A stretch of 64,000 nucleotides of DNA, from NCBI GenBank assembly GCA_000961575.1, contig LADP01000021.1, forward strand, positions 62,001 through 126,000, written 5' to 3'. The notes beneath the pieces are model-generated. The model was not told where the DNA came from and searched no databases. It saw only the letters and a program-made list of their open reading frames with translations. Source of the DNA: Peptococcaceae bacterium BRH_c8a. Lineage in GTDB: Bacteria; Bacillota; Desulfotomaculia; Desulfotomaculales; Desulfallaceae. Positions 41,163-48,603 of the stretch are shown here, one piece after another; position 1 is the first letter of the stretch; each line of letters begins with the position of its first letter. A program made the position numbers and the translations under genes.

Positions 41163-41912
41163 TTGCCTCTGTTAAAGGCTGACGGAATGGGTTTTGACTG
41201 TAAGGCCGTGCTGTTTGATAAGGATGGCACTTTAATTGATTTCAAATATATGTGGCTGGAGTGGTCCAGGTACATGCTGGATGAAGTTTCAGCGGCCGCC
41301 GGGTTAAAGACCGGCGAACGTGACACGCTGGAACGGGCTATGGGTATTGACCTGGCTGCGTGGCATGTGGATCCCGAGGGCCCGCTGGCCGGGGGTAGCA
41401 TGACTGGGCTGCGGGAGTCCATGCTCCAGATGCTGCAAACCACCGGCCTGGATGAGGTCGAGTCACGCAATCTGTTACAGAACATAATCCGACAAGCTGA
41501 GGAAGCTATGAACTGGGAAACCCTGGCGACCCCTGTTCCCGGCTTGTACGAAATGATGGATAAACTGCACGGCAGGGGATTCAAACTGGCCGTGGTAACT
41601 GCAGATTATGCCAGCCGGGCCAAAATTTCTTTGGCTGCACTTAAGCTAATTGATTGTTTTGATGTGGTGCTGGGTGCCGATTGCGTGGAGAACAGTAAAC
41701 CTGCCCCGGATATGGCCTTGTTAGCCTGTCGGCAACTGGGCGTGGAGCCGGGCCTGGCGGTGGTGGTGGGGGATACACCCCGGGACATTTTGATGGCCAA
41801 AGATGCCGGCACCTGCAGCATAGGCGTCCTTTCCGGGGTTTGTACCCGGGAGCAACTGGCCGCTGCAGAGGCCGACGCGGTAATCGATTCGGTGGCCGAC
41901 CTGAGGGTTTAA
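41163..41912 (+). CDS. HAD-superfamily phosphatase
   Basis: 249 residues from TTG at 41163, 7 bases after GGGGG; ATG at 41142 and TTG at 41157 are alternatives. HAD motif I is LFDKDGTLIDF with the nucleophile Asp, motif II is VVTADY, motif III is the Lys in NSKPAPD, and motif IV is VVVGDTPRDILMA. It resembles phosphoglycolate phosphatase or a pyrophosphatase type. The stop overlaps the convergent gene by four bases. Confidence 0.88.
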   Translation: MPLLKADGMGFDCKAVLFDKDGTLIDFKYMWLEWSRYMLDEVSAAAGLKTGERDTLERAMGIDLAAWHVDPEGPLAGGSMTGLRESMLQMLQTTGLDEVESRNLLQNIIRQAEEAMNWETLATPVPGLYEMMDKLHGRGFKLAVVTADYASRAKISLAALKLIDCFDVVLGADCVENSKPAPDMALLACRQLGVEPGLAVVVGDTPRDILMAKDAGTCSIGVLSGVCTREQLAAAEADAVIDSVADLRV

Positions 41913-43246
41913 CCGTCTTCCATGGCCAGTTCGCCCTGAAGTTGGTCGATGAACTGGCGGGCGGCCCTGGGTGAGCGCCCATTATGCCATGATGACCAGT
42001 GTAGCGCCCGCCGCCTGAGTTCCTCCGGCGCAATAGCCAGCCTGCGCTGCAGGGCTAATCCGGCTACAATTTTAAGAAACAGCTCCTGGTTCGGTGTGGG
42101 GAAAATGATAGTAATCCCAAACCGGTCAGCCAAAGAAAGCTTTTCCTGCACCGAATCCATGGCGCGCACCTCAGTACCGGGCGCGCCTTTAGCACGGTCG
42201 GCAAAGGTTTCCCGTACCAGGTGCCGTCGGTTGGAGGTGGCGTAAACCAGCACATTTTGGGGCCGTGCCTCCAACCCTCCCTCCAACAGGGCTTTGAAGT
42301 CCTTGTACTGAGTTTCGTTTTCCTCAAATGAAAGATCATCCACAAAAATAATATACCGGTGGTTACGATTCCGAAGTTGGGCCGTGATTTGCGGAAAATT
42401 AGCCAGTGAGTGTTTGGAGATTTCAACCAGGCGCAAGCCATTATCACTATATTCATGCAGCAGCGCTTTAACTGTGGATGATTTGCCTGTACCGCGGTCA
42501 CCGTATAGAAGTATATTGTTGGCGGGATGGCCGTGCAGGAACTGCAAGGTGTTGCTAATAATTTCCTCTCTTACATCCCCGTACCCCACCAATTCGGACA
42601 GGGTCACCGGGTCGGGGCGGTTTATACCCGCAAGCATTCCGTCTTGCCATTTAAAAGCTTCGTATTGGCCCCAAATGCCACAACCATTTTTAGAATAATA
42701 TTTAGCCAGAGGCAGGGGAAACTCGTCCCAACTTGCAGCCGCAGCTAGTTGTTCTTTAAACTCCAAACGCCGGGCCTCAATACCACCGGGCTTATCATGT
42801 GCCGGGGCGGGGGCTGCCCATATGGGCAGCTCGTCCAACAGACCGGGAAGCAGGGGGTTGGACAGTTGGTGACTGGTGGCTCTCATTATTGTAACGGCAC
42901 TTGCGTCAAAGGCCAGGCGAAGTATTGCCAGGTCTCTTTTTACTCCGTCCCAAAGGGCTGTAAACGGTCGATGTGGTGTAAACGCCGCCTGACTAAAGGG
43001 GTTGTTGTCATTAAGGAGCAGGTTCAGCAAATGGTTTTGCCAGGGATCCGCTCCGGTCATGGGGTTTTCGGTATTTGCCAACAGGTTGTAAATCATACCA
43101 TAGGTATGGGCCGGGTGAACCGTCCCAGGGATCCCGGCCAAGGCTGCTAGGTGTTCCATGTAACCCCGCACCACGGGATCATCCAGTATGTTCCGGTAAA
43201 CGGTGAGACTGCGCAATGCGTCATTAATGTAATAGATGTCGTTCAA
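41909..43246 (-). CDS. DUF815 family AAA ATPase
   Basis: 445 residues from TTG at 43246 behind GCGAGGTG; the frame is open to 43294 without a ribosome site. The N-terminal half is helical and unrecognised. The C-terminal half is a DUF815 AAA domain with Walker A GDRGTGKSS, Walker B YIIFVDDLSFEE, sensor YATSNRRHLV and an Arg-rich end. The family is widespread and poorly known. It overlaps the HAD gene tail to tail and leads a run of minus-strand genes. Confidence 0.85.
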   Translation of the reverse strand: MNDIYYINDALRSLTVYRNILDDPVVRGYMEHLAALAGIPGTVHPAHTYGMIYNLLANTENPMTGADPWQNHLLNLLLNDNNPFSQAAFTPHRPFTALWDGVKRDLAILRLAFDASAVTIMRATSHQLSNPLLPGLLDELPIWAAPAPAHDKPGGIEARRLEFKEQLAAAASWDEFPLPLAKYYSKNGCGIWGQYEAFKWQDGMLAGINRPDPVTLSELVGYGDVREEIISNTLQFLHGHPANNILLYGDRGTGKSSTVKALLHEYSDNGLRLVEISKHSLANFPQITAQLRNRNHRYIIFVDDLSFEENETQYKDFKALLEGGLEARPQNVLVYATSNRRHLVRETFADRAKGAPGTEVRAMDSVQEKLSLADRFGITIIFPTPNQELFLKIVAGLALQRRLAIAPEELRRRALHWSSWHNGRSPRAARQFIDQLQGELAMEDG

Positions 43247-43313
43247 ATCTACACCTCGCAAGCATAAGTTAAAAGTATTAATTTTACTCCGCACCGCGGA
43301 TTAAATAGCTAGT

Positions 43314-43706
43314 TCAGAGAGTACCCCTTTTGTTTCTCCAGTAGCTGACATAATCTTCGTAAAGCTTTCCCCCGGGCTGCCATTCCACAGTGGTCTGTGC
43401 TTCGGTTTTATACGTATCGGTCCATAGACTCAGCCTTTTTTGGATCAGTTGGCGGGTTTTTTCGTCTCTGGGTGCCTGGGTGTAAACGCATAATACTGAG
43501 TTTTCAATATAGGGGCAGGGATCCCAATGGGGGTTTTTGTTGGCGAACTTAGCCATCAAGATCATGCCGTCAGCGGCCAGTTCATCCAGTTGGGGTGAAA
43601 TTCCTCTGAAGAAATCCGCGCCTGCTTCGTAAATCCACTTGCCGGTAAAATTATTCTTAAAGTCCGGCGCGAATACATAGGTCCATATTGTCCCTACCTG
43701 AATCAT
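43314..43706 (-). CDS. Hypothetical protein
   Basis: 130 residues from ATG at 43706 behind GGAGAG. Aromatic-rich and soluble (GTIWTYVFAPDFKNNF, FANKNPHWDPCPY, YEDYVSYWRNKRG). No family recognised. It lies 67 bases before the DUF815 start in the same direction and could share its transcript. Confidence 0.65.
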   Translation of the reverse strand: MIQVGTIWTYVFAPDFKNNFTGKWIYEAGADFFRGISPQLDELAADGMILMAKFANKNPHWDPCPYIENSVLCVYTQAPRDEKTRQLIQKRLSLWTDTYKTEAQTTVEWQPGGKLYEDYVSYWRNKRGTL

Positions 43707-44093: not shown

Positions 44094-44408
44094 TCAATAC
44101 CAGAAGAATAAAACTACCAGTGTGGTAATTATTCCCGCTAGGGACAGGATGGCCATATAACTGCTGAACCGAAACATTTTTTTCAGGGCGGCAATTTCGG
44201 TATCCATGCGGTTGGAGTATTCATTTAGCCATTGGTCCATTTTCTGAGCATCGGTGTCGATATGTTCACGCAAGGCGATTATTTCATTCTCCAGCAGGCT
44301 AAATTTACGTTCGGCCGGTAGTATCAGCCCATCTTTAAAAGACCGGGCCAGAGAACCGGTCAGCTCGGGATTAGCATCTTCTCTAGGCATCTCGTAAAGC
44401 TTGGCCAC
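44094..44408 (-). CDS. Coiled-coil protein with C-terminal membrane anchor (dynamin cluster)
   Basis: 104 residues from GTG at 44408 behind GGGAGGTG, 3 bases after the previous stop, so it is translated with the gene before it. Residues about 30-78 form a coiled coil (ENEIIALREHIDTDAQKMD). Residues about 82-103 form one membrane segment at the end (AILSLAGIITTLVVLFFWY). A tail-anchored layout suggests it fixes the dynamin machinery to the membrane. No family recognised. Confidence 0.75.
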   Translation of the reverse strand: MAKLYEMPREDANPELTGSLARSFKDGLILPAERKFSLLENEIIALREHIDTDAQKMDQWLNEYSNRMDTEIAALKKMFRFSSYMAILSLAGIITTLVVLFFWY

Positions 44409-44411
44409 CGG

Positions 44412-44690
44412 TCACGCACCTCCCGACGCCTGGTTGATGGCATCCCTGATGGATGTCAGAACCAGCAGGGGGATTTCATCAACTTTTTGCTCCAACCGGA
44501 TAACCCGTTCCTTTAAATCCTCTATTCCGGCCCGGTCCACTTTTTTTATTTCTTCCAGCGTTGTTAACAGCCTGCTGTTTTCATTCAATACCGGCCGGAC
44601 GAATTTATCCTGCAAACCCTGTAAAATGTCGCCCAATATATCCTGTAATTCATCGTTGTGTTCTCTTGGTTGTGCGTTTGCAGACGGCAT
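44412..44690 (-). CDS. Small coiled-coil protein (dynamin cluster)
   Basis: 92 residues from ATG at 44690 behind GGGAGGT; an in-frame ATG at 44705 is upstream of that site. Almost wholly helical, with heptad patterns (LQDILGDILQGLQDKFVRP, DLKERVIRLEQKVDEIP). No membrane segment. It precedes the anchored coiled-coil gene by 3 bases. Similar small helical proteins accompany dynamin genes in other bacteria (GrpE-like in shape), but no homology is claimed. Confidence 0.72.
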   Translation of the reverse strand: MPSANAQPREHNDELQDILGDILQGLQDKFVRPVLNENSRLLTTLEEIKKVDRAGIEDLKERVIRLEQKVDEIPLLVLTSIRDAINQASGGA

Positions 44691-44713
44691 ATTCTTACCT
44701 CCCATGTTTTATA

Positions 44714-44777
44714 ATCAGGTAGTCAGGATTCAGAATAATAAAAGACATAAACCGTTAATATATTCTGACTCCTTAAT
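44714..44777. repeat. Facing heptamer arms (short copy)
   Basis: TCAGGTAGTCAGGATTCAGA opposes ATTCTGACTCCTTAATTA. It splits the dynamin operon between the 60-residue and the 92-residue genes. Confidence 0.6.
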
Positions 44778-44959
44778 TAAATCTTCTTCAGTGCCCGGTT
44801 AAAAGACTCCAGGAATCTGCGCATATCCCTGCTTTGTTTAGCGTCTATCGCCACGGAAAGCTCATCCAGCAGATTACGTTTGATTTCAGTACCGGTACTG
44901 TTGCTCACTTCCTTGATAATTCTTCGCAGTTTATCATCCAGCGCCCTGGCATTTTCCAT
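44777..44959 (-). CDS. Small helical protein overlapping the dynamin gene
   Basis: 60 residues from ATG at 44959 behind GGGAGGG. Its first 26 bases overlap the 3' end of the dynamin gene in another frame, so translation is likely coupled. Charged and helical (ARALDDKLRRIIKEVSNSTG, DMRRFLESFNRALKKI). No family recognised. Confidence 0.7.
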   Translation of the reverse strand: MENARALDDKLRRIIKEVSNSTGTEIKRNLLDELSVAIDAKQSRDMRRFLESFNRALKKI

Positions 44960-47735
44960 TGGCGTTCCCTCCCGTCGGGGTTGTGATTTCGCTTTCCAGA
45001 TTCTCCAGTTCGCGTGTATATTGGGTTACGGCTGCAATCAGTGACTTGGATGGGTTGGTAGCCCCCTTTTTAATTGCTGCCTGGGCTTCTTTTTCATGTT
45101 TTTGGGCCAGCTGTTGCAATGTCTCCCGGATATTTAAGGTTTCTTCGTCTAGCAGGGTAAGTAGATTACTGCGGGCTTCGCCGGGATTGAGGGTTTTGTC
45201 TTCTAACATGCGGTCAAGGATATCCTTTAAGACTTCAGCATTTAATTTGCTGATCGTGATGTCCGCCCCCGGGTACCACTTGGATTGGAAACTTTTAAGA
45301 GTTGTGTTAATCTCTGTGGCCAGATCCCGGTACGAAGGGTAGGGCACTGCTTTACGGGCTAGACCCAAAAACCCTTTTCGCACTAGCTTTTTGCCGTCCC
45401 GGAAGCCGAGGAAATCTGCCGGGCTGTCCAGAGACTCAATTTTATTTTGCCAGTCTGCCAGGACCTTGGCCGTTGTTTGCTGTATTTGTTCTTGATCCTG
45501 TCGGAATTGCTCGTTTTGTTCGGTGTAGGATGGAATAGAAGACGTTTTTTCTTCCAGCAGACCTGCTAATGCTGTTCCAGCTCGCCGGATAATACCAGCA
45601 TAATTGTCAGCGCAACGGGATAACCAGATGCGCTCTTTTAAATCGCCGGTCAGGTGGCTTAAAGCATGCCCGTCCTTACCTGTCAGCGCGTCCAGTGCGG
45701 AAACCAGATAAATCTTGACCGGGTTACGCGTACCCCGGGAGGGTCGAACCAGGTTGGCATGCAGGTAATTGCGTACCCGTTCTTTTTCCCGCTCATTTAG
45801 AGTATCGGCGAAGTTTACAATTACAAAAAGCTTACCAGTGCTGTTTCCGACCCGGCTAAGGGCCCCGGATATAATGTTATAGGTACTAAGATCCGGCCTG
45901 GTAAGAATGTGTTTACTGTTCAGGAAAAACAAAAAACAATCTGAATCGGGTAGGTAACGGGTGGTAATTTCCCGGTGCCGGTGATAAACAGAGTCCAGAC
46001 CGGGTGTATCCAGAAAGTCGGCGGTGCGCAGTATATCAGCGGGGTGGCTGATTACTATTTCCTCCACCCGCAGAGCATGGTATGAGCCTGCAGTTTGTTC
46101 CAAAGTCTTAATGTCAGTTTCATTGGTCAGGTCAAGCTCAATACTTTCCTGGTGTGGGAAATGCACGACATAGTAGTCAGCCCGCTCACTGCCGTTGAAA
46201 CTGGACAAGGGAATGCGCTTAAACAGTGATTTCCAAGGCCTTCTGCCTTTTTTAGAACGGTGCCTGACCCGGGCAAAAGTTTCCTTAAGGGTTTCTATTT
46301 CCAAGCATAATTCATCCGGCGAAATCCTTGCATTCCGCCCTTTTTTCACCTTCTCTAGCGCGCTGATTCCGGAGCGCAGTTTAGGGCTGGTGAGCCAGCG
46401 TTCAAGCACTTCCAATTCATGACGGCAGATGATGGCGTGTTTCTTTTCTACATAATGAGTGGGAATAGTGACCTGGTTGGCAAACCTGACCATAGCTTTT
46501 TTCCTGTCACCGTATCGGAGACGGGTGACGGTGAATGTAGTGGGCCGGTTTTCCGCCGGCAGCAGGGCTTCACCCAGCAGGGCATTAAAAAAAGTGGTTT
46601 TGCCAGTGGAAAAACCGCCGGCGGCGGTAACCAGATACTGCTCCCGATCCAATTCCCTGGTCAGTGCCCGCATTAACGCCATGGTTTCGTGAGCGGATTG
46701 CAGTACCGGGTCATCCGCCGCCCTGGTAAGCACGGACTTGATTCTGCCCTTCACCAAAGCGGGATCGGGTGCCGTTCCCCGGGTCAGGCTGACCGCGGAC
46801 ATATGCGGTAATCCTTTTGCCGGTCTGATTAATTCATCCACGTAAGCGCCAATTTGTTTTGACACCAGAGGCAAGGTTTTAATAATATTGCGGCCTTGAA
46901 TTACCTTGCTGGCGGCCTGGCTGGCGTCCCAGAAGTGGAGCAAAAACGAAGTGTCGTTGTTTTCTTGTAACGAAGCAGAGGTTAACCCCGGAATTTGACG
47001 ATCCAGTTCCTTAAGCTGGCGAGTGACACTTTTAATCACCACGTCAGCTGCCCGGTCCTGAATGAATAGACGGAACCGACGCACTGCTTCCGGGTTCATG
47101 GTATCGGTAACATGTACCTGAATTTCACGGGCGCAAATTTCCCGCAATACCCGACGGGATTCGGTAAGTGAAGTGCCGTCGTAGTGACCCAGGTTGCGGT
47201 TAATCCAGAAAGAGAGCTTTTCTACCCCAGCCGATTCCAGCAATTGGCCGATAAACTTTCGATCCGCCTCACCAGGCCCCCGTTGATGTAGCATATAGAC
47301 GATGTGGTCTGCTTTGGCAAGCTGATCCGGCAGTCCATCCGTGCCGGTAGCGGCGTCGAATCCAGGGGTGTCCACAAGGCGCATCCTGCGCAGCAGTTCG
47401 TGGTTTAAACTTACCTCTACTTCAAGCACCCGCCGGGCAAGGGCATCTTTTACTTTGGGTAGTGACTCAAACTCCGTACTGCTTAGCACTTTAATCCGAC
47501 CGTCGGCCAAACGGGCAGTAATTGAAAACAGTTCATCGCGGCTGAAAATGACGGGGACGCTGGTGGCGGGGAGTACATCCACAGGCGATACCTGCTGCCC
47601 CAAGAGACTGTTGACCATGGTGGATTTGCCGGTGTTATAAGGCCCGGCCAGAGCTACCACCGGCAATTCTCCGGTGGACAGGTACATACTGGTTAAACGG
47701 TCGACGCGGCTAAAATAGTCTTTGAATTTGCTCAT
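44934..47735 (-). CDS. Tandem-GTPase bacterial dynamin-like protein
   Basis: 933 residues from ATG at 47735 behind GGAGG; ATG at 47771 is in frame without a site. Two dynamin-type GTPase units are fused. Unit one: P-loop AGPYNTGKST (about 30-39), DTPGFD, and a WINRN-type base motif. Unit two: P-loop AGGFSTGKTT (about 370-379), DTPGLDSV (about 573-580) and FVIVNFADT. Long helical stalk regions follow each. The layout is that of B. subtilis DynA, a membrane-fusing dynamin that protects membranes, though this one is shorter. No clear membrane segment; the anchor may be the protein at 44094-44408. Heads a four-gene unit. Confidence 0.9.
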   Translation of the reverse strand: MSKFKDYFSRVDRLTSMYLSTGELPVVALAGPYNTGKSTMVNSLLGQQVSPVDVLPATSVPVIFSRDELFSITARLADGRIKVLSSTEFESLPKVKDALARRVLEVEVSLNHELLRRMRLVDTPGFDAATGTDGLPDQLAKADHIVYMLHQRGPGEADRKFIGQLLESAGVEKLSFWINRNLGHYDGTSLTESRRVLREICAREIQVHVTDTMNPEAVRRFRLFIQDRAADVVIKSVTRQLKELDRQIPGLTSASLQENNDTSFLLHFWDASQAASKVIQGRNIIKTLPLVSKQIGAYVDELIRPAKGLPHMSAVSLTRGTAPDPALVKGRIKSVLTRAADDPVLQSAHETMALMRALTRELDREQYLVTAAGGFSTGKTTFFNALLGEALLPAENRPTTFTVTRLRYGDRKKAMVRFANQVTIPTHYVEKKHAIICRHELEVLERWLTSPKLRSGISALEKVKKGRNARISPDELCLEIETLKETFARVRHRSKKGRRPWKSLFKRIPLSSFNGSERADYYVVHFPHQESIELDLTNETDIKTLEQTAGSYHALRVEEIVISHPADILRTADFLDTPGLDSVYHRHREITTRYLPDSDCFLFFLNSKHILTRPDLSTYNIISGALSRVGNSTGKLFVIVNFADTLNEREKERVRNYLHANLVRPSRGTRNPVKIYLVSALDALTGKDGHALSHLTGDLKERIWLSRCADNYAGIIRRAGTALAGLLEEKTSSIPSYTEQNEQFRQDQEQIQQTTAKVLADWQNKIESLDSPADFLGFRDGKKLVRKGFLGLARKAVPYPSYRDLATEINTTLKSFQSKWYPGADITISKLNAEVLKDILDRMLEDKTLNPGEARSNLLTLLDEETLNIRETLQQLAQKHEKEAQAAIKKGATNPSKSLIAAVTQYTRELENLESEITTPTGGNANGKCQGAG

Positions 47736-47796
47736 GGTGAAATCCTCCAGGGACTTTTCCGGACAGTACAAAACAACTATCCGTGTGTCCTGTAGG

Positions 47797-47829
47797 ATTA
47801 TATTAGAGGCCTGTCTCTATTATGACAGG
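47797..47829 (-). promoter_or_regulatory. Candidate promoter and operator of the dynamin operon
   Basis: On the minus strand a perfect TATAAT lies at 47797-47802. Just upstream is the inverted repeat CCTGTC-N8-GACAGG (47810-47829), overlapping the -35 position, which itself is a poor match. The arrangement suits a repressor or activator site. Confidence 0.4.
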
Positions 47830-47865
47830 TATTGCACATTAGAAGTTAGAAGTTGGAAATCGGAG

Positions 47866-48603
47866 TTATTTGGTAACTTGCATTGACTTTATTTCTTTTT
47901 GCACATGTTGTTCGGCCATCCGGAAAAAATCCGCCAGGTCATCTTCAACGCGGCCGGCGGCAACTTCAATCAACTGAGCTACCTTGGGGGTATTAATATT
48001 AATCTGGTGCCGGGCGTACATTTGGATGCGGTACTTCCCGGCCAGTGATTGGGCGGTGGCCCGGTAAACTTCTATATAGCCGGGGAAAGAGGCAATACGG
48101 CTTTTCAGTCGTTTGCTGTCGCCGGTGACAGCAGACAACACGGTGCTCAGATGGTCTATAAGAGTATGGTTATTGAACGCCCGGCGCAGGATTTGGCCAT
48201 AGTGATCGCGGCAGCTAATCTTCATCTCAATGCCCATTTCCACAATGTTATGCGCCTTCCATAAACCCATACGTTCGGGGAGGTTGCAGGCTTCAATGGT
48301 CTGCGCCACCAGTTCCCGGCCCTTTTCGAAGCAGTACCCCAGCTCACAACCGGGATATTTTTCATCACCGAAATAATCCAGCCCTTGGGGAGAGATGCCA
48401 TGGGTGACGGCACCGAGGGCAAAGTCGGTGAGTTCTTCGTTGTCGTGGAACATGCTAAGCAACTCAAGTCCCAGGCTGTGCGCCCTTGTATGGTCAACGC
48501 CGGCGCCAACCATCATATCGGGAAAAATACTGCCCAGGGTGATAGCATCCGAACGGCGACCCAGTACAGTTTCAGCAAAATAGACGTGGGTTTGCGGAAA
48601 CAC
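47866..48603 (-). CDS. Zinc-dependent phospholipase C-like protein
   Basis: 245 residues from GTG at 48603 behind GAGGGGGAG. The N-terminal part resembles the zinc phospholipase C fold: PQTHVYFAE, GSIFPDMMVGAGVDHTRAHS and GAVTHGISPQGLDYFGDE give a spread of His/Asp zinc ligands. No signal peptide, so it is probably cytoplasmic. The gene lies 130 bases before the dynamin gene in the same direction. A lipid role beside a membrane-remodelling GTPase is attractive but unproven. Confidence 0.65.
   Translation of the reverse strand: MFPQTHVYFAETVLGRRSDAITLGSIFPDMMVGAGVDHTRAHSLGLELLSMFHDNEELTDFALGAVTHGISPQGLDYFGDEKYPGCELGYCFEKGRELVAQTIEACNLPERMGLWKAHNIVEMGIEMKISCRDHYGQILRRAFNNHTLIDHLSTVLSAVTGDSKRLKSRIASFPGYIEVYRATAQSLAGKYRIQMYARHQININTPKVAQLIEVAAGRVEDDLADFFRMAEQHVQKEIKSMQVTK

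Follow-up and report, generated by a model that had tools for sequence, protein, structure and literature searches.

A compact tandem dynamin co-inherited with three small helical proteins suggests an adaptor-recruited membrane module in Desulfotomaculia

How bacterial dynamins find their membranes and how they are regulated is poorly known. DynA of Bacillus subtilis acts in membrane surveillance and gives its host phage tolerance (PMC8844932), and paired dynamin heads are known in bacteria (PMC6104087); dedicated small-protein partners of the kind reported here do not appear in the searched literature. A stretch of 64,000 nucleotides from Peptococcaceae bacterium BRH_c8a (the window) encodes a tandem dynamin beside three small helical proteins, here termed S60, S97 and S104, and raises the question of what such proteins do for a dynamin that lacks a membrane segment. 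The dynamin belongs to a known superfamily. To judge from the sources consulted, the novelty lies in the set of small proteins, in how strictly they are co-inherited and in the compactness of the tandem dynamin. The constant pairing, within a group of anaerobes, of an anchor-less tandem dynamin with three small proteins, one of them membrane-anchored, suggests that bacteria have their own version of the dynamins that adaptors recruit to divide mitochondria.

Organization of the locus

The positions and directions of the genes (Table 1) are as an initial annotation of the window gave them, and its finer reading agrees with the gene coordinates as well: the 3′ end of the dynamin gene shares 26 nt with the 60-codon S60 gene, S97 and S104 are 3 nt apart, and every start is preceded by a Shine–Dalgarno-like site, read from the window sequence. 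For S97, the best ribosome site, GGAGGT, lies 6 nt before the ATG at 44690 and defines the 92-residue protein; the 97-residue frame begins within that site. Promoter and terminator scans gave nothing above chance.

Table 1. Genes of the module in the window (G000:C48), the associated gene, and the remnants left by deletion in related genomes
Feature	Position	Strand	Description
245-aa protein	47866..48603	minus	Associated gene, not core; first of five same-direction genes
Tandem dynamin	44934..47735	minus	933 aa, ATG start; two GTPase domains, P-loop lysines K37 and K379; no transmembrane segment
S60	44777..44959	minus	60-aa helical protein; N-terminus M(E/Q)NARxL near-invariant
S97	44412..44690	minus	92-aa soluble helical/coiled-coil protein, motif ILx9P; 97 aa if read from 44705
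S104	44094..44408	minus	104-aa coiled-coil protein, GTG start; N-terminal motif SLAx9P, C-terminal membrane anchor
S104 3′-end deletion scars	L107:8528-9224; L108:7512-7834		Between conserved flanks

Searching 84,980 species genomes with the S60 profile yielded 35 named loci, located in Desulfotomaculum, Desulfoscipio, Desulfallas, Sporotomaculum, Desulfotruncus, Pelotomaculum, Desulfofundulus, Desulfovirgula, Desulfocucumis and related metagenome-assembled genomes. All 35 carry dynamin, S60, S97 and S104 in that order on one strand, with junctions that are mostly short or overlapping. Order and strand are thus the same in 36 of 36 loci, including the window, which excludes chance: the cluster is a real, conserved unit. 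A locus search seeded with the dynamin alone returned nothing, because the patterns chosen for it are not conserved. In the closest relative, S60 and S97 are separated by 488 nt (L037:12210-12697) instead of 71, as if by insertion. One carrier, a metagenome-assembled genome titled 'Actinobacteria bacterium' (L088), has a public name that looks wrong.

Co-inheritance and joint loss

The class of the window in GTDB (Desulfotomaculum, Pelotomaculum, Desulfofundulus and relatives) was surveyed in 101 genomes at least 80% complete. S60, S97 and strong matches to the dynamin (E below 1e-60) were each found in 53 of these, the same 53 genomes with essentially one copy each, although the counts are not independent because the genomes are related. 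Genomes whose only dynamins are weakly similar proteins of ~600 residues have neither S60 nor S97. The expectation that the small genes accompany the tandem dynamin is borne out by these counts and by the 35 complete loci; small genes missing beside tandem-dynamin homologues in relatives were looked for across the class and were not encountered.

Beyond the order, S97 had no convincing match in 399 genomes of the phylum; the sole hit, 36 residues within a 324-residue frame (E 6e-4), was taken as chance. The search for tandem dynamins outside the order covered 200 genomes at a strict E-value and may have missed more distant ones. S60 has no copies in phage or viral collections, and a phage origin of the module was rejected.

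Joint deletion and joint absences inside several families provide the strongest evidence that the four genes form a unit. In the genus of loci L055, L057, L107, L108, L110 and L111, the usual flanks of the module are an upstream gene, c0, on one side and the gene for the 245-residue protein on the other. Two genomes of this genus, G037 and G077, keep both flanks and have no dynamin, S60 or S97; what is left between the flanks is the last ~48 codons of the S104 gene in G037 (tblastn E 5e-27) and a C-terminal piece of it, at least 11 codons long, in G077 (tblastn E 3e-4). A scar of S104 between kept flanks indicates loss rather than absence of gain, with the four genes removed together, and the left edge common to both scars suggests a single ancestral deletion followed by erosion. 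The module is also jointly absent from members of families f5, f8, f9 and f15.

Architecture of the tandem dynamin

Dynamin-type GTPase domains were found twice in the 933-residue protein by Pfam (Dynamin_N, 1e-31). Across 26 homologues, both sets of G motifs are invariant or nearly so, with G1, G3 and G4 present in both domains. An AlphaFold2 model built with these homologues reached a pLDDT of 79.5 and a pTM of only 0.50, which leaves the arrangement of the domains unsure. Its best Foldseek match is BDLP (2j69, E 2.6e-14), followed by Cj-DLP1/2 (5owv), and among solved bacterial dynamins it also matches SynDLP and IniA. The GTPase motifs, taken with the dynamin fold of the model, identify the protein as a bacterial dynamin-like protein.

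The protein had been described as two complete dynamin units, which holds for the GTPase domains and fails for the stalk. In the window dynamin, 342 residues separate the P-loop lysines (335–366 among intact homologues), as against 569 residues between K56 and K625 of B. subtilis DynA (PMC8844932). After the second NFAD motif, 275–312 residues remain in a long class (families f1, f13 and f18) and about 114–157 in a short class (f5, f8, f9 and f15). It follows that the first unit is ~200 residues short of that of DynA, and that in the short class most of the second stalk is missing as well.

DynA resembles the window dynamin in combining two dynamin GTPase units in one chain and in having a Bacillota host. 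The DynA profile NF052648 matches the window dynamin with 97 bits (7e-28), in contrast to its curated cut-off of 1600 bits; the model spans 1187 positions, compared with proteins of 933 or about 750 residues here. With its shorter P-loop spacing, the window dynamin does not comprise two full units of the DynA type and, unlike DynA, its type is always accompanied by S60, S97 and S104.

A hydrophobic segment, of which the initial annotation had seen no obvious sign in the window protein, is absent from every dynamin homologue (maximum 19-residue mean hydropathy, 1.56), in a scan that is blind to amphipathic surfaces. Contact with the membrane must be made through the C-terminal tip, in the long class only, through surfaces that are silent in hydropathy, or through a tail-anchored partner. 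Long-class dynamins may bind membrane through their own C-terminal tip.

Two of the homologues are split into two reading frames, one inside the second GTPase domain (G022, L066:7128-9430) and the other just after it (G010, L050:7171-9953; the same locus as L077, Desulfotruncus arcticus). The S60, S97 and S104 genes beside both are intact; the breaks could be genuine decay, a natural division of the gene or an error of sequencing. Many genomes of the class also encode a second, weakly similar dynamin of ~600 residues (for example, G004:C52, G007:C11 and G047:C13).

The three small helical proteins

S104 is the only member of the module with a membrane anchor. It and its counterparts, mostly 67–110 residues long, consist of an N-terminal motif, a helical stretch and a C-terminal hydrophobic segment. 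The motif, (S/A)L(A/G/S)x9P, lies near the N-terminus of all 36 proteins, compared with 1.2% of shuffled sequences. The C-terminal segment is likewise present in 36 of 36 loci, at mean hydropathies of 1.7–3.0 (in the window, a mean Kyte–Doolittle value of 2.57 over 17 residues from residue 86), in line with its original description as a coiled-coil protein with a C-terminal anchor.

In S97, the prolines are invariant, a KxxxPxxxEN stretch is conserved, and the motif I(L/M/V)x9P, found in 34 of 36 proteins, places its proline at the same distance as in the S104 motif. A profile comparison of the two families gave P 1.9e-4 and a probability of 47%, and each HMM weakly matches the proteins of the other. 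From this weak profile match and the shared motif, S97 and S104 are probably paralogues, of which only S104 has a membrane anchor. S60 has invariant M, N, A, R and L residues at its N-terminus and a variable C-terminus.

Profile searches with each small protein, which the initial annotation had proposed, turned up nothing convincingly related in Pfam, NCBIfam, PADLOC or the PDB. Pfam and NCBIfam matches of all members were weak, scattered over unrelated helical families and taken as chance, as was a match of SpoVIF to S60 (9 of 30 members, best E 0.0029). PDB profile matches of S60, S97, S104 and the 245-residue protein were to coiled coils or designed proteins, or were chance matches. Nor did these Pfam, NCBIfam and PADLOC scans or the open-access literature reveal a described system with the set of dynamin, S60, S97 and S104, as the first reading of the locus had supposed.

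A model for membrane recruitment

From these observations we infer physical binding, recruitment, regulation and a cellular role for the module. The preferred reading, to which we give a probability of roughly one half, is that of a four-gene membrane-remodelling module in which a cytosolic tandem dynamin is recruited by tail-anchored S104, with S97 and S60 as helical co-factors. S104 would be anchored in the cytoplasmic membrane, its helix on the cytosolic side, and bring in the dynamin, with its two heads and reduced stalk. S97, which has the same N-terminal helix motif as S104, might form mixed coiled coils with it or compete with it, and so set the number of dynamins assembled. S60, which has a near-invariant N-terminus and a gene that overlaps or abuts the dynamin 3′ end, may bind directly to the dynamin, either to complete its stalk or to control it. 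Membranes would then be tethered, and fused or reshaped, as the heads pair in a GTP-driven step. The role is probably membrane repair or stress tolerance, like that of DynA; this appears the likeliest because DynA has a part in membrane surveillance and in tolerance of phages (PMC8844932) and because paired dynamins are known (PMC6104087).

The nearest analogy is with eukaryotic FIS1/MFF and DRP1, where a soluble dynamin works with tail-anchored adaptors (PMC9377713). The hydropathy of the dynamins and the C-terminal segments encoded by 36 of 36 third small genes predict the same combination of a soluble dynamin with a tail-anchored partner. No sequence relation was found: the resemblance is by analogy, and recruitment in the bacterial module is what we infer. 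If the comparison is correct, bacteria and mitochondria would have reached the same recruitment logic.

Among bacterial systems, Cj-DLP1 and Cj-DLP2 of Campylobacter also have two dynamin heads working together, but these are encoded by separate genes with full stalks, in an operon with an HcpA-like beta-lactamase and without small helical partners (PMC6104087). In iniBAC, LeoABC and Streptomyces DynAB, bacterial dynamins are likewise encoded with partner genes; in those systems the dynamin is joined by a second dynamin, IniB, LeoB/LeoC or SepX, which S60, S97 and S104 do not match. The LeoA profile in PADLOC matches the GTPase domain of the window dynamin (4.7e-15); LeoB and LeoC had no match among the partner proteins, so the gene set is not that of LeoABC.

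The three partners may have a further part. It is possible, at odds a little short of even, that membrane anchoring and part of the function of the stalk have been delegated to these dedicated proteins, making the module a bacterial counterpart of adaptor-recruited dynamins; it would then represent a dynamin machine built from three undescribed protein families. A rival reading, in which the small proteins are structural and do not recruit, but line the reduced dynamin in a permanent four-protein complex and replace both stalk and membrane paddle, would account for the P-loop spacing of 342 rather than 569 residues, for the short tails after the second NFAD motif and for the strict co-occurrence of all parts. 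We consider it unlikely: long-class dynamins, which keep 275–312 residues after that motif, yet have the same three partners, so the partners are not simple substitutes for lost sequence.

The cellular role could also be in cell division or sporulation, with the module shaping septal or forespore membranes. The lineage of the window is known for endospores, which counts in favour of this role. Streptomyces DynA and DynB work at sporulation septa, DynB with the membrane-anchored partner SepX (PMC8748795). A general requirement is contradicted by the absence of the module from about half of the class genomes, and no divisome gene was recognised beside it, making such a role improbable. A little less probable still is anti-phage defence, in which the dynamin would protect or sacrifice membranes on infection. 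The tolerance conferred by DynA in B. subtilis (PMC8844932) and the patchy distribution of the module within the class, with loss inside one genus, would fit. However, in family f1 the neighbourhood is stable and the module single-copy, and neither mobile elements nor defence genes were seen as neighbours; PADLOC gave only the general LeoA-type GTPase match for the dynamin and none for its partners, and viral and phage collections hold no S60. That the four genes are functionally separate and were merely kept together in one lineage is very hard to sustain, even for related genomes, given that the dynamin has different further neighbours from one family to the next, whereas these four always stay together, are identically present or absent in each genome, are jointly absent within families f5, f8, f9 and f15, and were jointly deleted in one genus.

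With its three strictly co-inherited candidate partner families, its naturally occurring joint deletion and its pared-down dynamin, the module makes recruitment and regulation directly testable by reconstitution.

The 245-residue protein and other neighbours

The gene ahead of the dynamin was labelled phospholipase C-like in the initial annotation. It is real and runs in the same direction, whereas its identity is weakly supported. The zinc-dependent phospholipase C family PF00882 was matched by 5 of 18 homologues, at best with E 0.036 and below the gathering score, and not by the window protein. Compared with the PDB, a confident model of the protein (pLDDT 89.8) reached no match with an E-value under 0.001, and the 50 matches listed include no phospholipase. 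The conserved His, Asp and Glu residues of the alignment (H42, H68, D76, D80, E81, H118, E122, E126 and H199) would fit a metal site.

Of the 53 module genomes, 52 have the gene, as do 13 that lack the module (65 of 101 in the class). In most of f1 and f18 its place is upstream of the dynamin; in f9 and in G082 it comes immediately downstream of S104. It was not found beside the module in f5, f8 and f13, and many module genomes carry it at an unlinked site. The protein, of a family that no library names, is a looser associate of the module and not part of its core.

Downstream of the module, an AAA ATPase with DUF815 and S130, a 130-residue protein without a Pfam match (43314-43706), occupy 41909-43706 of the window; the two are encoded side by side in 8 loci of f1. 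They were left out of the module because they are conserved neighbours in f1 and not in most other families.

In families f5, f8, f9 and f15, a protein of ~354–426 residues with a hydrophobic C-terminus is encoded upstream of the dynamin on the same strand (for example, L066:4903-5967 and L057:11024-12100; also L055, L062–L065 and L109–L111). It has no Pfam match and is reminiscent of DUF155/RMND1-type proteins. Its gene outlasts the deletion of the module.
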